In this document: positions 10,782-45,850 of the stretch, one piece after another
Layout: every line of letters begins with the position of its first letter
Numbering within the stretch: the stretch's first letter is position 1
From: Oceaniglobus ichthyenteri
GTDB lineage: Bacteria; Pseudomonadota; Alphaproteobacteria; Rhodobacterales; Rhodobacteraceae
Assembly: GCF_003057885.1 (NCBI RefSeq)
Contig: NZ_QAGK01000016.1
Coordinates: forward strand, 1-59,564
Length of the DNA stretch: 59,564 bases
Reading direction: 5' to 3'
Notes under the pieces: model-generated
What the model was told of the DNA's origin: nothing
Seen by the model: only the letters and a program-made list of their open reading frames with translations
Database searches by the model: none
Translations under genes and position numbers: made by a program

Positions 10782-11833
10782 TGGCTAGACCAAGAAAACG
10801 CACGGCTCTCCTACCAGAAAGGCACGCTGAACCGGATCTGTTCGTGTGCGATATTCTCGACGCTACGCCGAAAAGCGATCGAGCATCGATGGAGTATCCC
10901 CTCTTCTCGTTATCGGTCAAAAAGGACATGGTAGCGTTTCAGTATGAGCAGGGTAATGTTAAAGTGAAAATTACGCCGGCCGCTGAAGAGGGCCGCGCAA
11001 ACGTCTTTGACCGGGATATCTTGATATATGTTCTCAGTCAGCTGATGGCAGCAAAAAATGAAGGCCAAGAGATCGGGCGCCGCGTCCAGATCTCGGCTCA
11101 TGACCTCCTGAAGGCAACCAACCGGCACACGACTGGACAAGCCTATGCAACACTGCGTCGTGCCCTCACCCGGCTTCAGTTCACGCAGATCGAAACAAAT
11201 ATTCATGACCACGGCATAGGCGAATGGCGCTCGATTTCGTTCATTACAGACGCTCGTATCGTCAAAGAAGACTCGACGGGACGGCTTCTGAGCGTTGAGC
11301 TAGAAATGGGTGACTGGCTGGTAAAAGCAATTGAAAACAAGAACGTTCTTACCCTTCACAAAGCTTACTTCCAGTTAAGGAAGCCTCTGGAACGTCGTCT
11401 CTATGAACTCGCCCGGAAGCATTGCGGGAAGCAAGAGGTTTGGCGGATAGGTTTGGATAAATTGCAACTCAAAACCGGCTCGACATCGACGTCCAAGGAA
11501 TTCAAACGGCTGGTAAAAACCATCTGCAAGGCCGACGAAGATTCGTCACACATGCCGGATTATCGCTTTCGATTACTACACGATGTTCTGGAGATTACCC
11601 CAAAGCCTGAATTTCTTGACATTTACGGGGATCAGCCCGCTTCAAATCTCACGGATACAGTTCGCCTATCTGGCGAGGCTTATGAGAAAGCACGTGAGGC
11701 GGCTCCGACATGGGATGTATATTTCCTTGAGCAAGAGTGGCGGATGTGGATGAGTGAAGCCCCGCGTCACGCTGACGGTGCTTTTGTCGGTTTTTGTCGA
11801 AAGTGGTATGAACGAAAGGGCAATGCACCATAA
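10781..11833 (+). CDS. repA: Plasmid replication initiator (RPA family)
   Basis: A 350-residue initiator of the RPA/RepA type found on alphaproteobacterial plasmids. It has the family's opening YPLFSLSVKKDMVAFQYE (about 39-56), then winged-helix domains (for example ISAHDLLKATNRHTTGQAYA and LRRALTRLQFTQIETN). It binds the iterons to open oriV and recruits the host replisome. The ATG at 10781 follows the fifth iteron directly, leaving no room for a normal Shine-Dalgarno site, so translation is probably weak or leaderless and repressed by Rep itself. parA and a parB-like gene follow on the same strand. Full length, with no sign of damage. Assignment to a finer compatibility group cannot be made by eye. 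Confidence 0.9.
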   Translation: MARPRKRTALLPERHAEPDLFVCDILDATPKSDRASMEYPLFSLSVKKDMVAFQYEQGNVKVKITPAAEEGRANVFDRDILIYVLSQLMAAKNEGQEIGRRVQISAHDLLKATNRHTTGQAYATLRRALTRLQFTQIETNIHDHGIGEWRSISFITDARIVKEDSTGRLLSVELEMGDWLVKAIENKNVLTLHKAYFQLRKPLERRLYELARKHCGKQEVWRIGLDKLQLKTGSTSTSKEFKRLVKTICKADEDSSHMPDYRFRLLHDVLEITPKPEFLDIYGDQPASNLTDTVRLSGEAYEKAREAAPTWDVYFLEQEWRMWMSEAPRHADGAFVGFCRKWYERKGNAP

Positions 11834-12977: not shown

Positions 12978-15728
12978 ATGAACGCTGTTGAAATCGAAGA
13001 GGCCATATCCGATTTGGCCGAGCAGCCGTTCGATGATGACGAATTTCCTTATGCCTTTCTGCTGGCTTTCGGCAACAAAGAGACCACCATCAAACGCCTG
13101 CGCACCGGCGCGTCGAACAAGTCCGACCTTGGCGGCGTTCTTCAAACCAACAACATCCACCTTAAGACCTGCGCCAAGGGCGAGGTGGCCCAGACTCTCG
13201 CAGCCCTCAAAGCCAGCGGGGCCACCACCAAGGCCAAGGCGAAGTTCATCCTTACCACCGATGGCATTGACCTTGAGGCCGAGGACATCACCACCGGCGA
13301 CACCATCGCCTGCGCCTATGCCGATTTCCCTGATCACTTCGGCTTCTTCCTGCCGCTGGCGGGCATCTCCACCGTCAAACAGATCCGCGAAAGCGCTTTT
13401 GACATCCGCGCAACCAGCCGCCTCAACCGGCTTTATGTCAAACTGATCGAGGACAACCCCGACTGGGGCACCGCCGCGCGCCGCCATGACATGAACCATT
13501 TCATGGCGCGGCTGATCTTTTGCTTCTTCGCCGAAGACACCGATATCTTTGTCAGCGACAACCTGTTCACCGCGACGATCGACCAGATGTCGAACCGCGA
13601 TGGCTCCAACACACACGAAATCATCAGCGAAGTCTTCCGCGCGATGAACACCGCTATTGCGGATAGGGCAGGGGCCAAGCTGCCCCGCTGGGCCGATGCC
13701 TTCCCCTATGTGAACGGCGGCTTGTTCTCCGGCAGCACCGAGGCGCCGCGCTTTTCCAAGATCGCGCAGCGCTACCTCAGCCATATCGGCTCGCTGGACT
13801 GGACCCAGATCAATCCGGATATCTTCGGCTCGATGATCCAGGCCGTGGCGGATGATGAGGAGCGCGGCGCACTGGGGATGCATTACACCTCCGTGCCGAA
13901 CATCCTGAAGGTGCTGAACCCGCTGTTCCTTGATGATCTGCGCGAGGCGCTGGAGGCGGCGGGGGACAATGCCCGCAAGCTGGCAAACCTGCGCGCGCGC
14001 ATGGCCAAGATACGGGTGTTCGATCCCGCCTGCGGGTCGGGCAACTTTCTGGTCATTGCCTACAAGGAAATCCGCGCGATTGAGTTCGCGCTGAACAAAC
14101 GCATCGGCACGCCCGGGCGGCGCAGTGACATTCCCCTGACCAACTACCGCGGGATTGAGCTGCGGGATTTCTCGGCCGAGATCGCCCGCCTTGCGCTGAT
14201 CATCGCGGAGTATCAGTGCGATGTGACCTATCTGGGCCAGAAAGAGGCGCTGGCCGAATTCCTGCCGCTGGATGCGCGCAACTGGATCACCTGCGCTAAT
14301 GCGCTACGGCTCGACTGGCTGTCGATCTGTCCGCCCACGGGGACGGGGGTGAAGTTTCAGTCGGATGATCTGTTCATGTCGCCGCTGGAGCAAGCGCAGA
14401 TTGATTTCGAGAATGAAGGGGGCGAGACGTATATTTGCGGCAACCCGCCCTATCTTGGCAGCGCATGGCAAACAAAAGAGCAGAAAGAAGATCTAAAGCG
14501 CATTTTTGACGGGCGCACCAAAAGCTGGAAGTCGTTGGATTATGTCGCGGGTTGGTTCATGAAGGCTGCTGACTACGGGCTACACACGCCAACTGTGTCG
14601 GCCTTTGTGTCCACCAATTCCATCTGTCAGGGAGAGCAGGTGCCGATCCTCTGGCCGCTGATGTTCGAAACAGGGCACGAGATCGTATTTGCACACACAA
14701 ACTTTAAATGGGCAAATTTGGCCAGCCACAACGCAGGCGTGACGGTAGTCATTGTGGCTGTCTCCAACCACGTCGGCTCGGTGCGTAGGCTTTATGCGTT
14801 AAATAGTGACGGTGAAACCGTTCTGAAAGAAGTCGAAAACATCAACGCCTATCTAGTGGCCGGTCCGAACGTTATAGTGAGTAAAATTGCACGCACACCC
14901 GAAGGCAGAGGAAAGATGCTGCGTGGTAACATGCCTACCGATGGCGGTAATTTCCTGATGACAGCGCAGGAAGCGCGTGAGTGGATTTCAAATAATGTTT
15001 TGCCTGAACAGTTTGTTCGCCCATTTATGGGAGCAAATGAAGTTCTCAATGCGTTGCCAAGATATTGCATATGGATTGAGGATGAAAAACTAACCGAGGC
15101 TCTAACGATCCCGTTCATTGCCGAGAGAATTGATCGCGTGCGCGAAATGCGTTTGAACAGTAGCGCACCGACTACGAGAAACACAAAAGTCCCACCACAC
15201 AGGTTTATGCAGATAGAAGGAACGGCAGAGGAGTTTACAATCTCTGTCCCTGCAATCACTTCGGAAAACAGAGAGTTTCTACCGGTAACCCTGTTGCCAG
15301 GGAATGTTGTCTTTTCAAATAAGTGTTACGCTATCTACGATGCTCCCCTATGGAACATGGCGCTAGTCGCCTCGCGTCTGCACTGGGTTTGGATCGGCAC
15401 GGTCTGCGTGCGACTTGAGATGCGTTTCAGCTATTCCAACACCATCGGTTGGCATACCTTCCCGATTCCGAAACTCACCGAGAAGAACAAAGCCGATCTG
15501 ACGCGATGCGCCGAGGACATCCTGCTCGCCCGCGAGGCGCATTTCCCCGCCACCATCGCCGATCTCTACAATCCCGACACCATGCCTGAAAACCTGCGCG
15601 CCGCCCACGCCCGCAATGACGAGGTGCTGGAACGCATCTACATCGGCCGCCGCTTTCGCAACGACACCGAGCGGCTCGAAAAGCTGTTTCAGATGTATAC
15701 GAAGATGACCACCAAGGTGCCCGCATGA
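12978..15728 (+). CDS. MmeI-like N6-adenine DNA methyltransferase without nuclease domain (defence island gene 1)
   Basis: A 916-residue class I DNA methyltransferase. The SAM-binding motif FDPACGSGNFL lies at 348-358 and the catalytic motif NPPY at 489-492, as in N6-adenine gamma-type enzymes. The helical segment before it (MARLIFCFFAEDTDIF, AFPYVNGGLF, SLDWTQINPDIFGS) matches the connector of type IIG enzymes of the MmeI family. The N-terminal 150 residues show no PD-(D/E)xK nuclease and differ from MmeI. The target-recognition region follows at about 540-790. Cleavage, if any, must come from the partner genes downstream. It overlaps the next gene by ATGA, so they form an operon. The target-recognition part is visibly lower in GC than the rest, suggesting domain exchange. 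Confidence 0.88.
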   Translation: MNAVEIEEAISDLAEQPFDDDEFPYAFLLAFGNKETTIKRLRTGASNKSDLGGVLQTNNIHLKTCAKGEVAQTLAALKASGATTKAKAKFILTTDGIDLEAEDITTGDTIACAYADFPDHFGFFLPLAGISTVKQIRESAFDIRATSRLNRLYVKLIEDNPDWGTAARRHDMNHFMARLIFCFFAEDTDIFVSDNLFTATIDQMSNRDGSNTHEIISEVFRAMNTAIADRAGAKLPRWADAFPYVNGGLFSGSTEAPRFSKIAQRYLSHIGSLDWTQINPDIFGSMIQAVADDEERGALGMHYTSVPNILKVLNPLFLDDLREALEAAGDNARKLANLRARMAKIRVFDPACGSGNFLVIAYKEIRAIEFALNKRIGTPGRRSDIPLTNYRGIELRDFSAEIARLALIIAEYQCDVTYLGQKEALAEFLPLDARNWITCANALRLDWLSICPPTGTGVKFQSDDLFMSPLEQAQIDFENEGGETYICGNPPYLGSAWQTKEQKEDLKRIFDGRTKSWKSLDYVAGWFMKAADYGLHTPTVSAFVSTNSICQGEQVPILWPLMFETGHEIVFAHTNFKWANLASHNAGVTVVIVAVSNHVGSVRRLYALNSDGETVLKEVENINAYLVAGPNVIVSKIARTPEGRGKMLRGNMPTDGGNFLMTAQEAREWISNNVLPEQFVRPFMGANEVLNALPRYCIWIEDEKLTEALTIPFIAERIDRVREMRLNSSAPTTRNTKVPPHRFMQIEGTAEEFTISVPAITSENREFLPVTLLPGNVVFSNKCYAIYDAPLWNMALVASRLHWVWIGTVCVRLEMRFSYSNTIGWHTFPIPKLTEKNKADLTRCAEDILLAREAHFPATIADLYNPDTMPENLRAAHARNDEVLERIYIGRRFRNDTERLEKLFQMYTKMTTKVPA

Positions 15729-17197
15729 CGCTTGATCCGGTGATGAGCGCGGATCGCACCCGCAAACTGGTCGATGACCTGCGCGCCAAACCGGCGGAAA
15801 CCGCGTGGATCGAATTCAAGGAAAACAATGCCGATGGGCCGCTGATCGGCAAGCTGATCTCGGCCCTGTCCAACGCCGCACGTCTGGCCGATCAGCATTT
15901 CGCCTATGTCATCTGGGGCGTGCGCGACAGTGACCATGCCGCCGTAGGCACGACGTTCGACCCGACGGTGAAAAAGGAGAAGGGCCAGCCGCTGGAACTG
16001 TGGATCGCCAACCACCTGCAACCCGGCATCGAGTTCCGTTTTGAAGAGGTGGATCATGACGGGGCGCGCCTGATCCTGCTTACCATCCCCGCCGCCGCCA
16101 CGGCCCCCGTAGAATTTGACCGCACAGCCTATCTGCGCATCGGCAGCGCCACACCTCGCCTGTCCGCCCATCCCGAGCGCCTGCGCGCCCTCTGGGCCAA
16201 GCTACAGCCCTATGCGTGGGAAACAGGCATCGCCGCGCAGTTCCTCACCGGTGACGAGGTTCTGGCGCGGCTGGACTACGCCATCTATTTCGATCTGACC
16301 GCACAACCCTTACCTGATAACAGACAGGGGATATTCGATAAGCTGCTGGCGGATCGTCTGATCCAGCGGGACGTCAGCGACCATTGGAACATCACCAATC
16401 TCGGGGCGATCCTCTATGCCAAAAAGCTGGCCGATTTCGGTCCTTCGGTAGAGCGTAAAGGCGTCCGCTTCGTCGCCTATGCAGGCACTGGCCGCGCAGA
16501 TGATGTGAGCCACCGTCAGGACGGCCAGCGCGGCTATGCAGCGGGGTTTCAGGGGTTGGTGGATTACATCGACGGCCTTCTGCCCCGAAACGAGCTGATC
16601 GGAAAAGCTTTCCGCGAGGAACGCCCGCTTTACCCGTCAATCGCGATCCGTGAGTTGATCGCCAACGCGCTGATCCACCAGGACATGACGATCACCGGCG
16701 CAGGCCCGCTGATCGAGCTGTTCAGCGACCGCATGGAAATCACGAACCCCGGCGCGCCATTGATGAGCCCGGACCGGTTTCTGGATACACCACCCCGCTC
16801 CCGCAACGAGGCCCTCGCATCCCTGATGCGCCGCATGAAGCTGTGCGAAGAGCAAGGCACCGGCATCGACAAGGTGATCACGGCAGTTGAGCTGCACCAG
16901 CTGCCACCCCCGGATTTCCGCATGGAAGGCGACGCTGTGCGCGTGGTCCTGTTTGCGCCGCGCCGCTTTGCCGACATGACACCGGAAGAGGCCGTGCGTG
17001 CATGTTTCCAGCATGCCGCACTGAAATACGTAGGCGGTCAGAAGATGACGAACGCCACACTGCGCGAACGGCTCGGCATCGACGATCAGAACGCAGCGCA
17101 GGCGTCACGGGTTATCCGCGCGACACTGGACGCCGGCCTGATCCGGCCAGCAGATGCAGAGCGCCCGCGTGCCGGCTATGTGCCTGCATGGGCGTAG
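15725..17197 (+). CDS. AlbA_2/Schlafen-type ATP-binding protein with GHKL-like domain (defence island gene 2)
   Basis: A 490-residue protein. The N-terminal AlbA_2 (Schlafen-like) domain has WIEFKENN (E30, K32), SALSNAARL and YVIWGVRD. A HATPase_c_4-like domain carries RELIANALIHQDM (N314) and IELFSDRMEITNPG. A C-terminal winged helix ends near AGYVPAWA. Such proteins are annotated as putative transcriptional regulators or ATP-dependent helix-turn-helix proteins, and they often sit in phage-defence loci as nucleic-acid sensors or effectors. Its ATG overlaps the methyltransferase stop. A 175-base gap separates it from the helicase gene, so the downstream three genes may have their own promoter. 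The exact role is inference. Confidence 0.85.
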   Translation: MTLDPVMSADRTRKLVDDLRAKPAETAWIEFKENNADGPLIGKLISALSNAARLADQHFAYVIWGVRDSDHAAVGTTFDPTVKKEKGQPLELWIANHLQPGIEFRFEEVDHDGARLILLTIPAAATAPVEFDRTAYLRIGSATPRLSAHPERLRALWAKLQPYAWETGIAAQFLTGDEVLARLDYAIYFDLTAQPLPDNRQGIFDKLLADRLIQRDVSDHWNITNLGAILYAKKLADFGPSVERKGVRFVAYAGTGRADDVSHRQDGQRGYAAGFQGLVDYIDGLLPRNELIGKAFREERPLYPSIAIRELIANALIHQDMTITGAGPLIELFSDRMEITNPGAPLMSPDRFLDTPPRSRNEALASLMRRMKLCEEQGTGIDKVITAVELHQLPPPDFRMEGDAVRVVLFAPRRFADMTPEEAVRACFQHAALKYVGGQKMTNATLRERLGIDDQNAAQASRVIRATLDAGLIRPADAERPRAGYVPAWA

Positions 17198-17372
17198 CTT
17201 GGAAAAGAATTGATCGGGTTTTGATTATGACGACGGGGGCAGGAGGGTGAGATTTGAAAAACAAATATAAATCATGCTGTTATGATGTCTGTATCGCGGC
17301 ATTATCATTTGATCGGGTCTTGATCGCCTACCTTGGAACGGAAGATGTCGCAGACGCCAGAAAGAAAACAAC

Positions 17373-19421
17373 ATGAAAAACCAAGTCCCCTCCGTCTCCG
17401 TCAAATATGAAGCCAATGGCGCATCGACCAAATCCAACGAGATGGGCATGCGCCAGATGCAGGAGCGCGTGTATCAAAAGCGGGGCGAACAATATCTGTT
17501 GATTAAGTCGCCCCCCGCTTCCGGCAAATCCCGCGCACTGATGTTCATCGCGCTGGACAAGCTGCACAACCAAGGGGTCAAACAGGCCATCGTGGTGGTG
17601 CCGGAAAAGTCGATTGGAGCCAGTTTCAATGACGAGCCGCTGAGCAGGTTCGGCTTCTGGGCCGATTGGCAGGTCGAGCCGAAATGGAACTTGTGTAACT
17701 CGCCCGGAACGGATGGCGGCAAGGTCAAATCGGTCGGCGCGTTCCTTGAAAGCAGCGACCAGATATTGGTCTGCACCCATGCCACATTCCGGTTTGCCGT
17801 GGAGAAGTTTGGAATCGAGGCATTCGACGATCGGCTGATTGCCGTAGACGAATTCCACCATGTTTCATCCAGCGAGGACAACATTCTCGGCAAACAGCTC
17901 AATGACTTCATCACCCGCGACAGCGTGCATGTCGTGGCGATGACCGGCAGCTATTTCCGCGGCGATGCGGCGCCGATCCTGGTGCCTGAAAACGAGGCCA
18001 AGTTCGATACGGTCACCTACACCTACTATGAGCAGTTGAACGGCTACAAATATTTAAAAACCCTTGATATTGGTTATTTCTTCTACTCCGGCTCCTATGC
18101 TGACGACATCCTGAAGGTGCTTGATCCGAATGAGAAGACGATCCTGCACATCCCTAACGTGAATGCACGCGAAAGCACGAAGGACAAACACAAAGAAGTA
18201 GAGCACATTATCGAGGCTCTGGGGAAATGGCAGAAAATGGACCCTATTACCGGGTTTCATCTCGTGAAAACCCCCGAGGGGCGGGTTCTGAAGATCGCCG
18301 ATCTGGTGGATGATGAGGCTGTGAAGCGCGAAAAAGTTTCTGCCGCGTTGAGAGACCCTGCTCAGAAGAACAACCGTGACCATGTAGACATCATCATCGC
18401 CCTAGGGATGGCCAAAGAGGGTTTTGACTGGGTCTGGTGTGAACACGCGCTGACGGTCGGCTATCGCGCCAGCCTGACTGAAATCGTGCAGATCATTGGC
18501 CGCACTACCCGTGACGCGGTCGGCAAATCACGCGCCCGTTTCACCAACTTGATTGCCGAGCCGGATGCTGCTGAAGCGGCAGTCACCGAGGCTGTGAACG
18601 ACACGCTCAAGGCTATTGCAGCAAGTTTGCTCATGGAGCAGGTGCTTGCTCCCCGGTTTAATTTCACAGCAAAGAGCGCCAAAAGTGGACCTGTCGAGGG
18701 ATTTGATTATGGCGAAAACGGCTATGATCCGAAGAAGGAAAATGTTGGCTTTGACAAGCACAGTGGTCAATTCCAGATCGAGATCAAAGGCCTCGCTGAA
18801 CCTAAAAGTGAATTTGCACAACGGATCTGCAATGACGACCTGAACGAGGTGATCACTGCTTTTGTTCAGGACAAGACAGCAATCGAACGCGGGCTGTTTG
18901 ATCCCGAACTTGTGCCTGAGGAGTTGACCCAGGTCCGAATGGGCAAAATCGTCGGGGCGAAGTTTCCCGAGCTAGATGCTGAGGATCAGGAGGCGGTGCG
19001 CCAGCATGCGGTCGCTGCCCTGAACCTGACCCAGAAGGCAAAGGAGATAGCGCTTTCCGCTTCAAACGATCCAGAGACAAACGGCAACACGGCACTGATT
19101 GACGGTGTGCGCAAGTTTGCAATGGACGTGCGCGAACTCGATATCGACCTGATCGACCGGATTAATCCCTTTGGTGAAGCCTATGCCATCCTTGCCGAAA
19201 GCATGAATGAGGAAAGCCTCAAGCAGGTTGCAGCGGTAATCTCCGCCAAGAAAGTGCAGCTGTCCCCTGAAGAGGCACGCGATCTGGCGCGCCGCGCAGT
19301 GAAGTTTAAGCAGGAGCGGGGGCGGTTACCGTCCATCACATCGGCTGATGCATGGGAAAAGAAGATGGCTGAAGGTGTCGCTTTTCTTGCCCGTATGAAG
19401 CAGGAGGCCGCCAATGGTTAA
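17373..19421 (+). CDS. SF2 DEAD/DEAH-type helicase (defence island gene 3)
   Basis: A 682-residue superfamily 2 helicase. Motif I is PPASGKS (47-53), motif II DEFH (159-162), motif III-like MTGSY and motif VI QIIGRTTRDAVGKSR (373 onward). The C-terminal 200 residues are helical and of unknown function (VQLSPEEARDLARRAVKFKQERGRLPS). The arrangement resembles type III and type I restriction helicases but lacks a fused nuclease. It overlaps the next gene by 8 bases (ATGGTTAA), so helicase and GIY-YIG protein are probably made together and may act as a complex. AAGAAAAC precedes the ATG, a weak ribosome-binding site. Confidence 0.88.
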   Translation: MKNQVPSVSVKYEANGASTKSNEMGMRQMQERVYQKRGEQYLLIKSPPASGKSRALMFIALDKLHNQGVKQAIVVVPEKSIGASFNDEPLSRFGFWADWQVEPKWNLCNSPGTDGGKVKSVGAFLESSDQILVCTHATFRFAVEKFGIEAFDDRLIAVDEFHHVSSSEDNILGKQLNDFITRDSVHVVAMTGSYFRGDAAPILVPENEAKFDTVTYTYYEQLNGYKYLKTLDIGYFFYSGSYADDILKVLDPNEKTILHIPNVNARESTKDKHKEVEHIIEALGKWQKMDPITGFHLVKTPEGRVLKIADLVDDEAVKREKVSAALRDPAQKNNRDHVDIIIALGMAKEGFDWVWCEHALTVGYRASLTEIVQIIGRTTRDAVGKSRARFTNLIAEPDAAEAAVTEAVNDTLKAIAASLLMEQVLAPRFNFTAKSAKSGPVEGFDYGENGYDPKKENVGFDKHSGQFQIEIKGLAEPKSEFAQRICNDDLNEVITAFVQDKTAIERGLFDPELVPEELTQVRMGKIVGAKFPELDAEDQEAVRQHAVAALNLTQKAKEIALSASNDPETNGNTALIDGVRKFAMDVRELDIDLIDRINPFGEAYAILAESMNEESLKQVAAVISAKKVQLSPEEARDLARRAVKFKQERGRLPSITSADAWEKKMAEGVAFLARMKQEAANG

Positions 19422-20607
19422 AGAATTTACCCCGGATGATGATGCTTTACTGGCCGAGCTTGGCATTGAGATCGAGCCAAAAAAGACCGTCAGCCGCACG
19501 CCGCGAGAAGAGCGTATCATCGCCGGCTTTGAAGAGATACAGCGCTTTACCGAAGAGCAGGGGCGACAGCCGCAACATGGCGAAGACGGGGATTTTTTTG
19601 AGCGCCTCTACGCCGTCCGGCTGGATCGTATGCGCGAAGTGCAGGAATGTCGTGATCTGGTGGAGCCGCTGGACCATCAAGGGCTTCTGAGAGGGTCTGA
19701 GCCAACTTTGCCTGCTGCCAGCGATGAACTCGATGATGATGCTCTTTTGGCGGAGCTCGGGATCGACGTTGATGCCCTCCCGATCACAGAACTGAGGCAC
19801 GTTCGTTCAACTGCAGAAAAGAAGGCGGCAGAAGACATCGCGAACCGCGACAAATGTGAGGATTTCGACACATTCAAACCGCTCTTCGAACAGGTGCAAA
19901 ATGAGTTGAATAGTGGCCTGCGCGAAACACGTCCGTTCGAGATGAAGGCCGAGATCGAAAAGGGGCGTTTCTTCATCGTCAGCGGTCAGAAGGCCTATGT
20001 CGCAGAAAAGGGTGAGATCACCATCACTGATCAAGGGCGCACTGATGCCCGGTTGCGAGTGATCTTTGACAATGGCACCGAGAGCAACATGCTGATGCGC
20101 TCGCTTCAGCGTGCGTTGAACAAGGATGAGGCTGGCCGCCGGATCACAGAACCAACCGCTGGTCCATTGTTTTCCGACCAAACGATCGACGGCGATGAGG
20201 CGAGCGGCACAATCTATGTGCTGCGCAGCAAGGCCGATCATCCGCTTATCGCGGAAAATCGAGAGCTGGTGCATAAGATCGGTGTGACCAACATGAGCGT
20301 GGAAAAGCGCATTGCAGGAGCGCATCTCCAGCCGACATTCTTAATGGCCAATGTAGAGATCGTGGCGACCTATGAACTCTATAATATCAACCGAACGAAG
20401 CTGGAAAACCTGATCCATCGCATCTTCGAACCCACACGGCTTGAGATTGAGATCTTGGATCGCTTTGGGCGGCCGGTTGTGCCGCGTGAGTGGTTTTTCG
20501 TGCCGCTTTTTGTGATCAAGGAGGCGGTCGAGCGGATTAAAGACGGCACGATTGCGAGGTATGTTTATGATCCACAAAACGCGCAACTCGTGAAGCGTTC
20601 GATATAA
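19414..20607 (+). CDS. GIY-YIG nuclease family protein (defence island gene 4)
   Basis: A 397-residue protein. Two acidic segments at the N-terminus share the motif DDDALLAELGI (near 9 and 108), an internal duplication. The C-terminal half is a GIY-YIG-type nuclease domain: GTIYVL (265-270), VHKIGVTNMSVEKRIAGA (from 286), a central YELYNINRTKLENLIHRIF with the expected conserved Glu, and a closing VPREWFFV. This variant, with the helicase in front, recurs in restriction-like clusters to my knowledge. It is the best candidate for the DNA-cutting subunit together with the next gene. The repeated DDDALLAELGI segments could be docking motifs for the helicase. It overlaps the next gene at TAATG. 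Confidence 0.85.
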   Translation: MVKEFTPDDDALLAELGIEIEPKKTVSRTPREERIIAGFEEIQRFTEEQGRQPQHGEDGDFFERLYAVRLDRMREVQECRDLVEPLDHQGLLRGSEPTLPAASDELDDDALLAELGIDVDALPITELRHVRSTAEKKAAEDIANRDKCEDFDTFKPLFEQVQNELNSGLRETRPFEMKAEIEKGRFFIVSGQKAYVAEKGEITITDQGRTDARLRVIFDNGTESNMLMRSLQRALNKDEAGRRITEPTAGPLFSDQTIDGDEASGTIYVLRSKADHPLIAENRELVHKIGVTNMSVEKRIAGAHLQPTFLMANVEIVATYELYNINRTKLENLIHRIFEPTRLEIEILDRFGRPVVPREWFFVPLFVIKEAVERIKDGTIARYVYDPQNAQLVKRSI

Positions 20608-22058
20608 TGGGGAAAATAAGCAACCCAATCAGATTTTCAGAGCACTATGGGATTGATTCCAAAGAGCTCGAAAGTCGGGGCATCCTCGACCCGACTTTAA
20701 ATTCTGATACGAAGCTTTTTATCGACCCGCTACTACTCGCAGAATCAAGTCACGCGGAGATTTCAAGCGGGGCACGTATTACCTACGAGACGCATTTCGG
20801 GAAAATCATAAAATTTCTTGTCAGAGCGAAGAATCCCACTGACGTAGCCTGGAAGAGTGCAGCGCGACTTCTGACGTTCCCAGAGATCCAATGGACCTGC
20901 CTAGGCTATGGTTCTCAATCGGTTTCTGGGAGCGGATCGGGATCAGACATGACAGGGCAGTATATCGAAACAGCACGACAGATTGTAGAACTTGGTATCG
21001 AAGACCCTGACCTTTTTGTCGCTATGGCCTTGTTCGAAAACGGCGTAGGCCCTGATCGCATAAGCGATATGACCACAAACGTTATCTTGGGTGATCTTCT
21101 GAGGCTTAACGAGCGTATCCTTCCGGAACTTGGCATCCCGACCCAAGAAATGACCCTCAATTTGAAGAACGGGAAGAGCTATACCGCGCAATTGGCGATT
21201 AACCCTTATGTGGGGCCTTGTGACCCGGTTATCCTCGTTCCCAGTGACATACTTCGCGACCTTCCGATTGCGACGGATTGGTCGGATGTGGCGGATGCTG
21301 CATCGAAGAACGCGGAGCTGCGGTCTCGGGTGAATGTTCAGATTGCTCGGATGTGGCGGGTAAAGAGTAAGAAGGATAAGGGTGAAATCCGCCGATGGGC
21401 ACTTTCGGATAAGTCCTCATTCGAAACTTTCATGGAAATGCTGCGAGGTGCCAATCCAACGGCCTACGACATGCATGGCGATCCTCTGGGCGAGGTGTTC
21501 TGGCGGAAAATCGCCGCCACTTTGGCTCAGCAAGAGCCTTTGGAAATATCAGCTCCACCGAAAATGGACCTTGCAGGCGTCGAAACCGTTGTCAGAATAA
21601 TTATCGAGCAATTCCGCTTTTTGATCGAAGATCGTCGGTTTTCAGAAGAGCTTTATCATCAAGGGAAGCCTCGACCCGAGATTTCTGCGCAGCGGCTATT
21701 TTTTGCGGTCGCGCACGCCTACTGTAAAGCGAATAACCTCGATCTGACGCCCGAAGCTGAGACGGGCAACGGACCAGTTGATTTCAAAGTATCGGCAGGA
21801 TTTTTGGGGAGAGCAGTCGTAGAGATCAAGCTATCGCGAAATCCCAAGATAGTTGATGGCTATACCAAGCAACTGGAAACCTACAAGGTGGCCGAAGAAA
21901 CCGTGAGCGGTTTCTATGTCATTGTGGACGTAGGGCATATGGGCAAGAAGGATGAGCGATTAATTGCGACCAAGAACGCGGCTGCATCCGAAGGTAAAAT
22001 CACCTCGCCAATTATTTTTGTTGATGGATCGCGTCGCGCGTCAGCAAGTAAGCTCTAA
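20607..22058 (+). CDS. Predicted PD-(D/E)xK nuclease-like protein (defence island gene 5)
   Basis: A 483-residue protein that I do not recognise as a named family. The C-terminal domain has a PD-(D/E)xK signature: D392 in GPVDFKV, then E406-x-K408 in VVEIKLS on a following strand, then a helix with YTKQLETYK. The spacing of 14 residues and the order fit restriction-like endonucleases. The N-terminal 350 residues are mixed alpha/beta with a Ser/Gly stretch (SVSGSGSGSD, about 103-112). It starts within the stop of the GIY-YIG gene. GC content is lower than in the first two island genes, suggesting that the island was assembled from parts. It may be the effector nuclease or a second subunit. Confidence 0.75.
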   Translation: MGKISNPIRFSEHYGIDSKELESRGILDPTLNSDTKLFIDPLLLAESSHAEISSGARITYETHFGKIIKFLVRAKNPTDVAWKSAARLLTFPEIQWTCLGYGSQSVSGSGSGSDMTGQYIETARQIVELGIEDPDLFVAMALFENGVGPDRISDMTTNVILGDLLRLNERILPELGIPTQEMTLNLKNGKSYTAQLAINPYVGPCDPVILVPSDILRDLPIATDWSDVADAASKNAELRSRVNVQIARMWRVKSKKDKGEIRRWALSDKSSFETFMEMLRGANPTAYDMHGDPLGEVFWRKIAATLAQQEPLEISAPPKMDLAGVETVVRIIIEQFRFLIEDRRFSEELYHQGKPRPEISAQRLFFAVAHAYCKANNLDLTPEAETGNGPVDFKVSAGFLGRAVVEIKLSRNPKIVDGYTKQLETYKVAEETVSGFYVIVDVGHMGKKDERLIATKNAAASEGKITSPIIFVDGSRRASASKL

Positions 22059-30225: not shown

Positions 30226-30430
30226 TTTGATATTCCTCCTCCAGGTGAGTCGTCTGCAAAATGCCGACCGACCCATTCAGGGTTCGTTGTTTTGTGACAA
30301 CGCTCATTAAAGTGTTTTAAGCAATTTTCTGATCCGGTGGGTTAGGACGAGAGATGCGCCAATATCCGCGCATCAGCATCGGAGCAGTCCCTTGTGGATT
30401 TCGGCACAGCAAAACCGTAGCGTGGCCCGT

Positions 30431-33400
30431 ATGAATACTGATTTGCCACTCATCGTTGGTGTTGGAGCCTCTGCCGGGGGTATTGATGCGATATCGCATC
30501 TTTTAGAAGGAGTCCCTTCGCAGTGCGGGATGGCCTTCATCGTCGTGACCCATCTCAATCCGGATCGGGAAAGCCTGTTGCATACGGTGCTGGCCCGAAA
30601 AACCGGGATGGATGTTAAAGTCGCGCAAGACGGTGAACGGGTCGAAGCGGACACTGTCTATGTCATGCCCGAAAAGGTGTTCCTGCTGATGAAGAATGGC
30701 CGGTTGCATTTGATGGAAAGCGCAAGGGGCAGCCGCGAACACAAACCCATCGATATTTTTTTCAGCTCTCTGGCAGAGGACCAGAAGGAAAACGCCGCCG
30801 CCATTGTGCTGTCGGGGGGCGACGGCGACGGAACGCTCGGCGTCAAGGTCATCAAGGAACAGGGCGGCGTGACTTTCGCCCAGATTGCGGACGGCAATCC
30901 GCCTCTCAACCCTGAAATGCCGCAAAGTGCCATTGCCACAGGGCTTGTTGATTTTGCCATTCCCGCGGCCCAGATGGGCGAAAAGCTGATTGAAATCCGT
31001 GATGGCCGCGCGACGCTGGATGCACTGGTCATGGCTGACGATCCGGATCACGATGCTGATCCTTCGAAAGCTCAACAGACGATTTGCGAAATACTTCTGA
31101 AGCAAACCGGCCATGATTTTTCTGGCTACAAGAGCAAGACGTTTTTCCGCCGCGTCGCTCGCCGCATGCAGGTTCGGCAGATCGGCGAGCTGAAAGAATA
31201 TTGTGTTTTGCTGTCTCGGGATGAGGATGAGATCAGCGCCTTGTTCAGCGACCTGTTGATCAGTGTCACCAATTTTTTCCGCGACACCGATGCTTTCAAG
31301 ATCCTTGCCGACAAGGTCATTCCCCAGATATGCGAGAACCGGGATGCGAAGAATCCGGTGCGTGTCTGGGTGCCGGCCTGCACCACCGGCGAAGAGGTCT
31401 ATTCCCTCGCCATCCTGATCAGCGAGCATCTGGAAGAAAACGCCATCTCTGCGCCCGTGCAGATATTCGCCACCGACATCGACGATCCGGCACTCGCCGT
31501 CGCACGGCAGGGCCGGTATCCCGAACAATTGCTGCGTCAGGTCAGCAAGGAGCGGCTGGAGAAATACTTCCACCGCGACGGGCTCAGCTATGTCGTGTGC
31601 AAGAAGGTGCGCGAGATGTGCATCTTTTCGCCTCACAACGTGATCAGCGATCCGCCGTTCTCGCGCATGGACATGGTGTCGTGCCGCAACCTTCTGATTT
31701 ACTTCGGGCCCGAACTTCAACGCCAGGTGATCCCGACCTTCCATTACGCGCTGAAACCGGATGGATATCTGTTTCTGGGAACTTCAGAGAGTATAAGCCA
31801 GTATGCCGACCTGTTTCGCACCGTAGACAAGCAAAGCCGTATTTTTCAGGCGATCGAACGCTCCGACCGGCGTTGGAACCCGGCCGGCATGATGAACCGG
31901 ATTGCCGACAGGAGAGCAGGCACCACCAACGAACAGGGGCTGTCCGATATCCAGCTGCGCCACAAGGTTGAACGGCACATTCTTGAACAGCATACCCCTG
32001 CCCATGCCGTTGTGCGCGAAGACGGTGAAATTGTCTTTGTGTCGGGCGGCACCGGCGGTTTGCTGGAACTGCCACGAGGCGCCCCGTCCCATCACCTTCT
32101 GGATATGGTGCCGCGTGATGTGCGATTCGAACTGCGCGCCGCTTTGCGGCAGGTGGTCGACAGCAGGCGATCGACTGTTCGGCGCGACCTTTCGATGCTG
32201 ACGGCCACAGGGGAGTTGAAACGCCTGAATCTGACCGTGGAACCTCTGCGGGGCACGGGTGAGCGGGACCCACTCTTCATCGTGTTTTTCGAACCTGTTG
32301 AAACTGCTCTTCCGAGTTCCGATGCGGACACCACCGATCACAGCAGACGAAGCGAGGCGGCCGAGAACGAAGTGCGCGAGATGCGCGAGCGTCTGCAATC
32401 CACCGTCGAGGAATACGAGACAGCCCTTGAAGAACTGAAATCGTCGAACGAGGAACTGGTATCCGTCAACGAAGAGGCTCAGTCCACCAATGAGGAACTT
32501 GAGGCCTCTAAAGAGGAGATGCAGTCCCTGAATGAGGAATTGAACACGATCAATTCCGAGCTGAGCGGCAAGATCGAGGAACTTGATCACGCTAATGCCG
32601 ATCTACGCAACCTTTTTGACGCAACCCAGATCGCGACAGTCTTCCTGGATGCCGACCTGGTCATCCGCAATTTCACGCCTGCGGCGGCAGAGCTGTTCAA
32701 TCTTCGCGCCGCGGATCTCGGGCGACCGCTTTCAGAGTTGTCCAGCGTCAGCGATTATCCGGAACTCAGGGAGCATATACGTGAAGTCTTCCAGTCGGGG
32801 GCGATCTATGAACATCGTCTCTCGCGCTCCGAATTGAGGACCAACTATCTGGTGCGGATCACCCCTTATCTTGGTGCGGATGAAACGGTCGAGGGCGCGG
32901 TAGTCACGCTGGTGGATGTCACGTCGCTCACGCAGGCAGAAGAGCATCAGAAAGTCCTGATCGCGGAACTGAACCATCGCGTCAAGAACATGCTGGCGGT
33001 GATCATCACCATCGTGAAGACGTCGCTCCGGGGAAAAAACATACCGCCCGACGCGCTGGAAACGCTGATCAACAGGTTACACGGCATGGCACGGGCCTAC
33101 AGCCTGTTGTCCGAACGCTCCTGGACCACGGTCGGGATGCGGGACCTCATTCAGGCAGAAACCGAACCGTTCGAACAGGACCGGATCCACGTCAGCGGAC
33201 CGAACGTGAACCTGCAGCCTTCCCAGGCATTGGCCATCAGCATGGTCATCCATGAGCTCGTGACCAATGCGATCAAATACGGTGCGCTTTCCAACAGCCA
33301 CGGCACCCTGGAAGTAAGGTGGAGTTTGGTAGGCAACCGATTGGCTCTCGAATGGCGGGAACGTGACGGACCGGAGACGACCAAGCCGGAACGAAACGGC

Positions 33401-33508
33401 TTCGGATACGTTCTTATTGAAGGTCAGGTAGAGCAACAGCTTAATGGCAGACTGGAAACAAAATTCGACCCCGAGGGTTTGAGCTTAACAATGGAGTTTC
33501 CCTTGTAA
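30431..33508 (+). CDS. CheB-CheR-PAS-HWE histidine kinase hybrid
   Basis: A 1025-residue multidomain sensor. The CheB methylesterase domain (about 5-190) has S14 in GASAGG, H41 in THLNP and the GGDGDGT aspartate. The CheR methyltransferase domain (about 205-480) has VWVPACTTGEEVYS. A coiled coil rich in SNEEL/NEE repeats spans about 645-720, then a PAS domain (about 725-840). An HWE-type kinase follows, with H850 in ELNHRVKNMLAVI and ATP-binding IHELVTNAIKYGAL. It has no membrane segment. The single receiver gene 16 bases downstream is the likely partner. HWE kinases often feed the alphaproteobacterial general stress response, which fits the plasmid's stress load. An alternative TTG start at 30392 has GGAG upstream; the ATG keeps the typical CheB start. 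Confidence 0.9.
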   Translation: MNTDLPLIVGVGASAGGIDAISHLLEGVPSQCGMAFIVVTHLNPDRESLLHTVLARKTGMDVKVAQDGERVEADTVYVMPEKVFLLMKNGRLHLMESARGSREHKPIDIFFSSLAEDQKENAAAIVLSGGDGDGTLGVKVIKEQGGVTFAQIADGNPPLNPEMPQSAIATGLVDFAIPAAQMGEKLIEIRDGRATLDALVMADDPDHDADPSKAQQTICEILLKQTGHDFSGYKSKTFFRRVARRMQVRQIGELKEYCVLLSRDEDEISALFSDLLISVTNFFRDTDAFKILADKVIPQICENRDAKNPVRVWVPACTTGEEVYSLAILISEHLEENAISAPVQIFATDIDDPALAVARQGRYPEQLLRQVSKERLEKYFHRDGLSYVVCKKVREMCIFSPHNVISDPPFSRMDMVSCRNLLIYFGPELQRQVIPTFHYALKPDGYLFLGTSESISQYADLFRTVDKQSRIFQAIERSDRRWNPAGMMNRIADRRAGTTNEQGLSDIQLRHKVERHILEQHTPAHAVVREDGEIVFVSGGTGGLLELPRGAPSHHLLDMVPRDVRFELRAALRQVVDSRRSTVRRDLSMLTATGELKRLNLTVEPLRGTGERDPLFIVFFEPVETALPSSDADTTDHSRRSEAAENEVREMRERLQSTVEEYETALEELKSSNEELVSVNEEAQSTNEELEASKEEMQSLNEELNTINSELSGKIEELDHANADLRNLFDATQIATVFLDADLVIRNFTPAAAELFNLRAADLGRPLSELSSVSDYPELREHIREVFQSGAIYEHRLSRSELRTNYLVRITPYLGADETVEGAVVTLVDVTSLTQAEEHQKVLIAELNHRVKNMLAVIITIVKTSLRGKNIPPDALETLINRLHGMARAYSLLSERSWTTVGMRDLIQAETEPFEQDRIHVSGPNVNLQPSQALAISMVIHELVTNAIKYGALSNSHGTLEVRWSLVGNRLALEWRERDGPETTKPERNGFGYVLIEGQVEQQLNGRLETKFDPEGLSLTMEFPL

Positions 33509-43741: not shown

Positions 43742-45850
43742 ATGTCTGAAAAATCACCGCAATTTCGTCCCTCAATCGAGACGCAGAAATCAAATGAGAC
43801 GACTGAGCGTCCCGAAAAAACGGGGCAAGGCGGCGAAACGCATCAGCAGTCATCCGATGGCGCGCGTTTGACCACAGCGCAGGGTGTGCCGGTTTCGGAC
43901 AATCAGAACACGTTGAAAGCGGGGCCGCGGGGTCCAGCCTTGCTTGAGGACTTCCATTTCCGCGAGAAGATGTTTCATTTCGACCACGAGCGTATCCCCG
44001 AGCGGGTGGTGCATGCCCGGGGCTATGGCGCGCGCGGATATTTCGAGACAACCGACGCGATCCCGGAGCTTACGTCCGCGCATCTTTTGCAGGAGAAGGG
44101 CCGCAAGGTGCCGGCATTCGTCCGGTTCTCGACCGTGGCGGGCAACAAGGGGTCGATGGATCTGGCCCGCGATGCACGCGGATTTGCCGTGAAACTCTAT
44201 ACCGAGGAAGGCAACTGGGACATCGTCGGCAACAACATCCCGGTGTTCTTCATCCAGGACGCGATGAAGTTTCCCGATCTGGTGCATTCGGTCAAGGAAG
44301 CGCCTGATCGCGCCTTTCCACAGGCGCAATCGGCGCATGACAACTTCTGGGATTTCATCTCGCTCATGCCCGAAGCCATGCACATGGTCATGTGGACCAT
44401 GTCGGACCGGGGCATTCCGCGGTCGTTCCGGTTCATGGAGGGGTTCGGAGTTCACACATTCCGCTTCGTCAACGCGGAGGGGGAGAGCCATTTCGTCAAG
44501 TTCCACTGGAAACCCAAGCAGGGTCTGCAATCGGTCCTGTGGGACGAGGCGGTCAAGATCAATGGCGCCGATCCCGACTTTCACCGACGCGACCTGTGGG
44601 GAGCCATTCAAGCGGGCGATTTCCCGGAATGGGAACTGGGCGTGCAGGTGTTTGACGACGCCTTTGCCGACACGTTCGACTTCGATGTGCTGGATGCGAC
44701 CAAGTTGATCCCCGAAGAGGACGTGCCCGTGCGTATAATCGGGCGGCTTGTGCTGGACAGCGTGGTCGACAACTTCTTTGCCGAAACCGAGCAGGTTGCG
44801 TTCTGCACCCAGAACATTGTGCCCGGTATCGATTTCACAAACGACCCGCTGTTGCAGGGGCGTAATTTTTCCTATCTCGATACGCAGATCAAACGTCTGG
44901 GCGGGCCGAATTTCACCCATATCCCCGTCAACGCGCCCAAATGCCCCTTTGCGCATTTCCAGCAGGACGGCCACATGGCGATGCACAACCCGGCGGGCCG
45001 CGCCAACTATGAGCCCAACAGCTGGAAAGACGGCGGCCCCCGCGCCGATCCGGAGACGGGCTTTACCTCGTTCCCAGAAGCCGTCGAGGGCGAGAAGCGC
45101 AAGGTGCGTGCGGAGCTTTTCGCGGATCACTACAGCCAGGCGCGCCAGTTCTATCAAAGCCAGACCGAGGTGGAGCAGGGCCACATCGCCGACGCGCTAA
45201 TCTTCGAGCTGTCGAAATGCGAGGTGCTGGACATCCGCGAACGTGTCGTGGCGCATCTACCGAACATCGACCCGGACCTCGCGCAAATGGTCGCAGATGG
45301 GCTGGGGTTTGAAAAAATGCCCAAGGCCCACACGCCCCGCCGCGAGGTTGTCGAGGGTCTCAAGCCATCGGACGCGCTTTCGATCCTCAAGAACGGGCCG
45401 GACAGCTTCAAGGGCCGCAAGCTGGGTATCCTAGTGACCCACGGTATTGACGGCGATCTGCTGGCTTCATTGCAGGACGCTGTCAAGGACGCGGGCGGGA
45501 TGGTCGAAATCGTCGCACCGACGATCGGCGGCATCAAGACGTCCGACGGAAAGCGCGTGCCGGCGGATCAGAAAGTCGATGGCGGGCCATCCGTGCTCTA
45601 TGATGCTGTGGCCGTGATGGCATCGGAAGACGGGATCAAAAAGTTGAAGTCCATGCACCCGGCCAAGGGCTTCGCTGCCGACGCATTTGCACATGCGAAG
45701 TTCATCGCACTCGCTGGTGAAGCCGAGGAATTGTTTCACGCAGCGGGCGTCGGCGATTTCGATGACGGCGTATTCCGGATTGCGAAAAAGGGCGACTGTG
45801 CGGCTTTCATCAAAGCCTGCGGGAAACTGAGATTCTGGCAGCGCAAATGA
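43742..45850 (+). CDS. katE: Large-subunit catalase, KatE/HPII type
   Basis: A 702-residue monofunctional clade 2 catalase that destroys hydrogen peroxide. It has the N-terminal extension, then catalytic His91 in [25 protein letters not shown], the Asn in [11 protein letters not shown] and the haem-binding region near [13 protein letters not shown]. The C-terminal flavodoxin-like (DJ-1/PfpI) domain (about 560-700) starts [17 protein letters not shown]. In enteric bacteria KatE is a general-stress enzyme. The strong start is preceded by GGAGAAACACAA. It is a single gene, and no GGAAC promoter was found upstream. Full length and intact. Confidence 0.95.

Follow-up and report, generated by a model that had tools for sequence, protein, structure and literature searches.

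The window analysed here, the entire 59,564-bp contig NZ_QAGK01000016.1 of Oceaniglobus ichthyenteri (one of 38; C8), contains an island of five genes on one strand (+), in which the known DnmA-YeeB-YeeC locus is combined with two genes of exchangeable cargo. The core comprises the genes for an MmeI-like adenine methylase, a helicase and a GIY-YIG/T5orf172 protein. The cargo genes, one for a Schlafen (AlbA_2) protein with a GHKL-type ATPase domain and the other for a PD-(D/E)XK-type protein, lie between the methylase and helicase genes and 3' of yeeC, respectively, and the gap behind the Schlafen gene includes a pair of direct repeats that recurs behind most of its homologues. A first-pass annotation had taken the five genes for an uncharacterised system. 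The locus that looked like a new system is a known core with two plug-in positions, and its parts are therefore separately testable.

In Bacillus subtilis, the trio consists of an MmeI homologue lacking the nuclease motif, followed by yeeB for a helicase and yeeC for a T5orf172/GIY-YIG protein, and it is considered a putative split restriction-modification (R-M) cluster (PMC7261158, PMC9973331). A type I-like system was suggested for the trio by Morgan et al. 2009, as cited in PMC7261158. Assignment of the window genes to this locus is based on domains, gene order and the product name in one record; the name 'restriction/modification system component YeeB' is given to the helicase in one of 30 listed plasmid records. 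The five open reading frames (ORFs) of the first-pass annotation are real, with the positions and strand it had assigned to them (Table 1). Its count of four overlapping or coupled joints plus one gap was in error, as there are only four joints, of −4, +175, −8 and −1 bp, i.e. three overlaps and the 175-base gap that it had reported. Its domain assignments were borne out by Pfam: AlbA_2 with GHKL (HATPase_c_4), a superfamily 2 (SF2) helicase (DEAD/ResIII) and GIY-YIG (MUG113/T5orf172). As in DnmA-YeeB-YeeC, the helicase gene is followed on the same strand by the T5orf172/GIY-YIG gene. It does not directly follow the methylase gene, as ~1.6 kb intervenes in the window, and adjacency of these two genes was not taken as defining because cargo sits there in 68 of 105 loci (see below). 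A pseudomurein-binding label carried by YeeB in plasmid records and in Pfam was taken as spurious.

Within the order, YeeB was detected in 33 of 292 genomes, a count that includes the genome of the window, and YeeB matches were found in 264 plasmid records, 154 of which cover at least 80% of the query. The methylase, helicase and GIY-YIG genes keep the same order in the loci inspected (designated by L numbers), barring cuts at contig ends and some broken loci. The latter include L061 with a partial YeeB, L051 with YeeB in two pieces, and L117 with the methylase in pieces, where ~1.2 kb separates two pieces of the gene (L117:3867-7941). The Walker and helicase motifs of YeeB reach a conservation of at least 95% among 108 aligned proteins, as do Y268, R299 and E331 of YeeC among 107 proteins.

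The sequence FDPACGSGNFL starts at residue 348 of the window methylase and NPPY is found at residue 489, as the annotation had noted. The catalytic residues of the MmeI nuclease are D70, E80 and K82 (PMC4833311). The window methylase retains the N-terminal domain of MmeI (PF20464, E 1.8e-33) and has no (D/E)xK in residues 1-160. Hence, the earlier description of a methylase without the N-terminal nuclease is right for the catalytic motif, which is gone, and wrong for the domain itself, which is kept. A loose pattern, D-x(7-14)-(D/E)xK, occurs in 10 of 90 related methylases at differing positions, and these matches are read as chance. Alignment with MmeI spans the window protein from residue 80 to the end, covering the methylase, target-recognition and C-terminal domains. 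The target-recognition domain is the most variable part, with a mean column conservation of 0.56 compared with 0.76-0.86 in the other domains (n=90). In this alignment, MmeI positions 774, 810, 806 and 808 are occupied by Lys, Ser, Glu and Arg, and the specificity residues of the window protein are K782, E814, R816 and S818. In the MmeI code, Lys774/Ser810 specify C at position 4 and Glu806/Arg808 specify C at position 6, adenine 5 being methylated (PMC4833311). Because the window residues read by this code give C at positions 4 and 6, the predicted methylation site is an asymmetric adenine site ending in C-mA-C, with positions 1-3 not callable. Among defence models, the methylase matches the type IIG model PDLC03598 (1.5e-278), matches to DrmMI (1.2e-30), mad2 (7.5e-9) and PglX (6.2e-6) being far weaker.

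The cargo positions were defined in loci from a genome scan in which the best 80 of at least 553 confirmed relatives were kept, and the slot counts therefore apply to loci whose YeeB is fairly closely related to that of the window. From 116 loci, the window included, 11 were set aside (two duplicates, the others because the methylase end or YeeB could not be read), leaving 105. The distance between the methylase and helicase genes in these loci is bimodal: 10-95 bp in 37 loci, where the slot is empty, and 412-7008 bp in 68 loci, where it is filled, with no gap of 150-300 bp in any of the 105. The YeeB-YeeC joint is tight (≤24 bp) in 108 of 108 loci; three further loci have no readable YeeC. 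A total of 94 ORFs that belong to many unrelated clusters was found in the first slot. Among the 89 of them on the same strand, Pfam detected SLFN/AlbA_2 in 11, RhuM in six and BrnT in three, as well as YhcG, PDDEXK_4, HEPN, Abi_2 and the NgoFVII PLD domain in two each, and extra members of PLD, HEPN and T5orf172 type were named by eye. The commonest cargo in this slot is a protein of ~137-175 aa with 16 copies (L031:9268-9684 (-) and 15 relatives). On visual inspection, its GADF...QLKGR stretch resembles those of PD-(D/E)XK proteins, and no Pfam match was obtained for the L031 member, the sole one scanned singly. The second cargo position is 3' of yeeC, where a same-strand ORF of at least 100 aa starts at −30 to +120 bp in 44 of 99 loci, the window included, a count without a shuffle control in which some will be chance ORFs. 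Several of these ORFs start at −4 bp and resemble SIR2, ATPase, GHKL or PLD proteins by eye. Passages of PMC9973331 mention uncharacterised neighbours only at the DnmA locus.

The AlbA_2 and PD-(D/E)XK genes are thus exchangeable cargo. A close AlbA_2/Schlafen gene (at least 78% identity) stands beside the core in eight of 112 other loci, one of which (L027) was hand-picked from the plasmid list, and a distant Schlafen gene (30-31%) occupies the first slot in two more, L094 and L115. The PD-(D/E)XK gene stands beside the core in one of the 112. Over the 292 genomes of the order, own included, relatives of the Schlafen gene number 11 and those of the PD-(D/E)XK gene seven. Both close cargo genes occur together with the core in the window only and in none of the 112 other loci. 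The annotation had made its five-gene reading depend on conservation of this gene set elsewhere, and with these gene-order data the reading fails. That the locus is split and restriction-like, with helicase and nuclease-type genes separate from the methylase, holds; that it is one unknown five-gene system does not.

In the PD-(D/E)XK protein, the residues D392 and E406-x-K408 that had been pointed out earlier are conserved in the window and six aligned homologues; a seventh (L028) fell out of the alignment. Its N-terminal part, residues 9-222 only, matches the PADLOC candidate PDC-M36A (E 6.7e-8). No relative was found by sequence search of the PDB or by a protein scan of viral contigs. A homologue of the gene belongs to a four-gene run in L151 (6611-11397), together with a PDC-M33A match and two unassigned genes, and this run is a candidate defence module of its own.

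The Schlafen protein includes a Schlafen/AlbA_2 domain (PF04326) and a GHKL-type ATPase domain (PF13749, HATPase_c_4, E 1.2e-24). Residues E25 and E30 are invariant among 23 homologues, and position 68 holds D in 20 of them and N in three. The spacing of this triad, 5 and 38, is that of E205/E210/D248 in SLFN13, where mutation of any one of the three diminished activity (PMC5862951). With this three-carboxylate site, the protein is a candidate back-up RNase. Its C-terminal region is conserved among the homologues and has no Pfam match. A PDB sequence search with the Schlafen protein gave only 3lmm, over residues 287-412. In six relatives, the Schlafen protein is 94-95% identical to that of the window, as compared with 84-85% for YeeB, and identity at four-fold sites is 51-54% for the Schlafen gene, 59-63% for the methylase, 42-45% for YeeB and 31-34% for YeeC genes. 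The Schlafen cargo is under strong purifying selection. Recent transfer of the gene as a cassette is not supported, as its four-fold-site identity lies between those of the methylase and YeeB/YeeC. The gene has 62.5% G+C compared with 50-56% in the other four island genes, which suggests a separate history. The same Schlafen protein is encoded in annotated type I loci (L163, L187, L189), in a DUF499/DUF1156 locus (L184) and outside restriction loci (L160, L164, L152). A single-protein scan of viral contigs revealed one relative (L181).

The 175-bp gap behind the Schlafen gene holds two 16-bp direct repeats 99 bp apart, TTGATCGGGTTTTGAT and its one-base variant TTGATCGGGTCTTGAT, and each repeat is made up of two half-sites 11 bp apart. 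Pairs with at most two mismatches were found behind the Schlafen gene in nine of nine close copies at DnmA loci, the window included, and in the three close copies examined from outside such loci; elsewhere, the same scan gave only single matches, in five loci, one of which also has a pair. Both perfect matches in the window's genome lie here, 16 others with one or two mismatches being scattered elsewhere. The search was extended to 30 Schlafen homologues, a set that counts the window and four partial genes among its members but not six copies nearly identical to that of the window, all of which have both repeats. A 7-mer repeated at lag 11 is present behind 22 of the 30 (shuffles: mean 0.5, maximum 3), compared with two of 104 regions behind YeeC and one of 80 behind other cargo, that one a distant AlbA_2 gene. 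A 19-bp pair (at least 15 matches, 55-130 bp apart) follows 21 of the 30 and appeared in 1 of 60 shuffles, the controls being 3/104 behind YeeC and 1/80 behind other cargo. Taken together, one or the other feature is found behind 26 of the 30 homologues, in most of them close 3' of the stop codon, and no repeat copy was found upstream of the Schlafen gene in any of 19. Eight further plasmid homologues were compared, of which L184, L187 and L189 reach the 15-of-19 threshold.

The distances between copies, 66, 78, 87-89, 98-100, 109-110 and 126 bp, are phased at ~10.8 bp (p 0.0012, computed on unique distances and not corrected for shared ancestry). The copies are more alike within a locus (distance 0.24) than between loci (0.43), and repeat difference tracks the distance between Schlafen proteins (r 0.69, permutation p 0.0002, n=18). 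The repeat region of the window shows no unusual RNA folding (z +0.75) and has no Rfam match. An A+T peak of 0.72 lies ~35-45 bp before copy 2. Because of the phasing near the helical repeat, the lack of an RNA folding signal in the window's copy and the change of sequence with the homologue, a DNA site bound by the cognate Schlafen protein, perhaps via its conserved C-terminal region, is favoured. At the DnmA loci, L187 and L189 (hsdR) and L184 (PLD-type anti-phage protein), a putative restriction gene follows directly after the element, and control of restriction is therefore a likely role inside such loci. The repeat element is not described in the literature searched; prior notice is possible in bioRxiv work on bacterial Schlafens cited in PMC12839542.

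Several loci depart from the simple pair. Three copies of the element, not two, are present downstream of the Schlafen gene in L154 and L177. In L163, similarity is greater between the two half-sites of an element (TTGCTTCAC twice, TTGTTTGAC twice) than between the two elements, as though half-sites were homogenised in pairs. Behind the distant AlbA_2 cargo of L094 and L115, units of 10 or 11 bp are arrayed in tandem in place of a spaced pair. A pattern scan of viral contigs revealed two perfect copies 98 bp apart in L182 (36,477 bp; 10808-10921), immediately behind a gene for a holin (PF11351) and not far from one for a phage integrase (PF00589), and a looser pattern a pair 90 bp apart in L192 (51,042 bp; 1124-1229), ~280 bp behind a terminase gene (PF04466). 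No viral contig matched the Providencia-type repeat pattern. The viral pairs could be decoy sites for the Schlafen protein, what is left of a lost gene, or an element with another owner.

Table 1. Genes and repeat elements of the island, with positions in the window.
Feature	Position	Strand	Remarks
DnmA/YeeA-like MmeI-family adenine methylase	12978..15728	+	Pfam MmeI_N/hel/Mtase/TRD/C; MmeI 5hr4 E 8e-140
Schlafen (AlbA_2) + GHKL-type ATPase protein, cargo slot 1	15725..17197	+	PF04326, PF13749; candidate back-up RNase
Intergenic region with phased repeat pair	17198..17372	.	175 bp, 43% G+C
Repeat copy 1, TTGATCGGGTTTTGAT	17210..17225	+	
Repeat copy 2, TTGATCGGGTCTTGAT	17309..17324	+	99 bp from copy 1
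YeeB-like SF2 helicase	17373..19421	+	PF00270/PF04851
YeeC-like GIY-YIG/T5orf172 protein	19414..20607	+	PF13455/PF10544
PD-(D/E)XK-type protein, cargo slot 2	20607..22058	+	D392/E406/K408

The island adjoins plasmid genes for an RPA-family replication initiator, a ParA/VirC1 ATPase, a Mob_Pre relaxase and a resolvase, and a weak KfrA_N match lies next to it. A small gene that overlaps the end of the ParA gene (window:12571-12864) has no Pfam match and is possibly ParA's partition partner. The plasmid also carries genes for a Y-family polymerase (1622-2893), a CheB/CheR/HWE histidine-kinase fusion (30392-33508) and a catalase (43742-45850).

From the gene content, cargo slots, conserved catalytic residues and repeat-Schlafen link described above, we infer a scheme for the biochemistry, self-binding, regulation and phage effect, for which our confidence is about even. 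The island would be a DnmA-YeeB-YeeC split R-M core with exchangeable second-line effectors in two fixed cargo positions, and the Schlafen protein would bind its own repeats. DnmA would methylate an asymmetric adenine site and so mark plasmid and host, and YeeB as a helicase or translocase and YeeC with its GIY-YIG fold would act on unmarked DNA. The Schlafen-GHKL protein would act as a reserve RNase that is set free once the core is inhibited or overwhelmed, like PrrC beside its type I system. It would bind the phased repeats downstream of its gene, which are located between modification and restriction genes. The resulting complex, with the DNA looped or wrapped, would set the expression of yeeB-yeeC, keep the Schlafen protein silent, or both. 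A broader proposal is offered tentatively, at somewhat less than even confidence: bacterial Schlafen-GHKL genes may be self-sited, each having a repeat pair of its own, helically phased and a short way 3' of the stop codon, to which the protein would bind as a looped complex. In at least three kinds of locus (DnmA-YeeBC, type I and DUF499/DUF1156), this complex would precede a downstream gene, often a restriction gene, and link that gene's expression with the state, armed or silent, of the Schlafen RNase, and the phage pairs would be decoy or trigger sites. No such self-site switch of Schlafen genes was described in the literature searched.

A number of observations weigh against this scheme. 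When dnmA, yeeB or yeeC was deleted singly in B. subtilis, sensitivity to three phages did not change, and transformation was unaffected by loss of dnmA (PMC7261158, PMC9973331); the core may therefore be inactive in many cases. Since repeats are also present behind Schlafen genes that lack an adjoining restriction gene, control of restriction cannot be their sole role. Nothing obvious comes after the element at these stand-alone copies, and at the type I locus L163 the next gene is hsdS, not hsdR; silencing of the Schlafen protein itself fits all the repeat contexts. The pair was not found behind the Schlafen gene of L155, and in the further plasmid homologues there were weak traces in L183, L185 and L190 and none in L186 and L188. 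No sigma-70 promoter signal beyond shuffles was detected between the repeats (7.25 vs 7.44, consensus). The tracking of repeat and protein could come from shared ancestry alone. No Schlafen match was obtained over the whole L182 and L192 records, which may be fragments, by the same search that detects the gene of L181, and a pair exclusive to Schlafen genes is ruled out by these two contigs. Structure predictions had mean predicted local distance difference test (pLDDT) scores of 35.4 for the PD-(D/E)XK protein and 34.6 for the Schlafen protein, which were too poor, and they were not used.

The B. subtilis data lend themselves to another interpretation, the conclusion published in PMC9973331, according to which DnmA is an active orphan methylase, YeeB and YeeC no longer restrict, and, extended to the window, the cargo would be passengers. 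For the window, we consider a relic of this kind unlikely, though far from negligible: the helicase motifs and the YeeC residues are conserved in more than 100 proteins each, purifying selection on the Schlafen cargo is strong, and in Vibrio crassostreae sensitivity to some phages rises when dnmA and yeeB are deleted (cited in PMC9973331). The repeats in turn could function at the RNA level: the Schlafen protein would bind or cut them in the 3' part of the transcript, as with an RNA antitoxin. Their place close 3' of the stop codon in most homologues and the action of Schlafen domains on RNA (PMC5862951) would agree with this; the folding score, the absence of an Rfam match and a spacing quantised at about the DNA helical repeat would not, and this role is rather improbable.

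It is more doubtful still that the repeats serve as sites of recombination or attachment, or stem from a phage, with the Schlafen gene as a merely frequent neighbour. Integrase arm sites are direct repeats, and the pairs in the two viral contigs, that of L182 behind a holin gene and near an integrase gene, would be accounted for. However, both copies lie 3' of the Schlafen gene and never upstream, their sequence changes with the Schlafen protein, among the cargo only Schlafen genes have them, apart from the single distant AlbA_2 gene noted above, and the heavily diverged synonymous sites show no recent move of a cassette. A dedicated five-subunit restriction or sensing machine, as originally suggested, would explain why the genes are so closely coupled, but with the two cargo genes and the core together in none of the 112 other loci it is very improbable. 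The scheme of a split R-M core with plug-in effectors and a self-binding Schlafen protein offers a candidate DNA partner for Schlafen-type back-up RNases, which are widespread in restriction and BREX loci. A short conserved DNA element near the gene, also present in two phages, makes the silencing and release of such nested effectors directly testable.

The island can be compared with several known systems. None of the five proteins matches HsdS, the separate specificity subunit of type I systems, and the window methylase has its own target-recognition domain. Matches to models of DISARM, BREX and MADS are confined to the methylase, and the other core genes of these systems were not found among the five. 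The methylase can be aligned with MmeI (type IIL) from residue 80 to the end, and differs from this fused enzyme in lacking the D70/E80/K82 nuclease motif. The B. subtilis dnmA(yeeA)-yeeB-yeeC cluster (PMC7261158, PMC9973331) has the same order and strand of an MmeI-like methylase without nuclease motif, a helicase and a T5orf172/GIY-YIG protein; compared by domains and gene order, the window differs in ~1.6 kb of cargo between methylase and helicase and a cargo gene after yeeC.

Cargo nested in restriction loci is already known for R-M and BREX (PMC3710099, PMC12255303, PMC12839542). The back-up effectors of BREX and BREX-related loci, which combine a Schlafen RNase, a minimal histidine kinase and a winged helix-turn-helix (wHTH) domain (PMC12839542), share with the window protein the domain order in the parts recognised by Pfam and the site inside modification-restriction loci, whereas the window's Schlafen protein is hosted by a DnmA-YeeBC core. 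The passages of that paper considered here do not mention a 3' phased repeat pair, and the words 'direct repeat', 'operator' and 'intergenic' are absent from its main text. PrrC of the type Ic system PrrI is likewise an RNA-targeting back-up effector embedded in a restriction locus, but it is a HEPN nuclease with an ABC ATPase rather than a Schlafen protein with a GHKL-type ATPase (PMC3710099). The RptR-controlled type I/DarTG2 island resembles the window in having cargo nested in a restriction locus and, if the window's repeats act as proposed, control by direct repeats; RptR is a small repressor acting at the first promoter of the operon (PMC12255303), whereas the repeats of the window lie behind the Schlafen gene.

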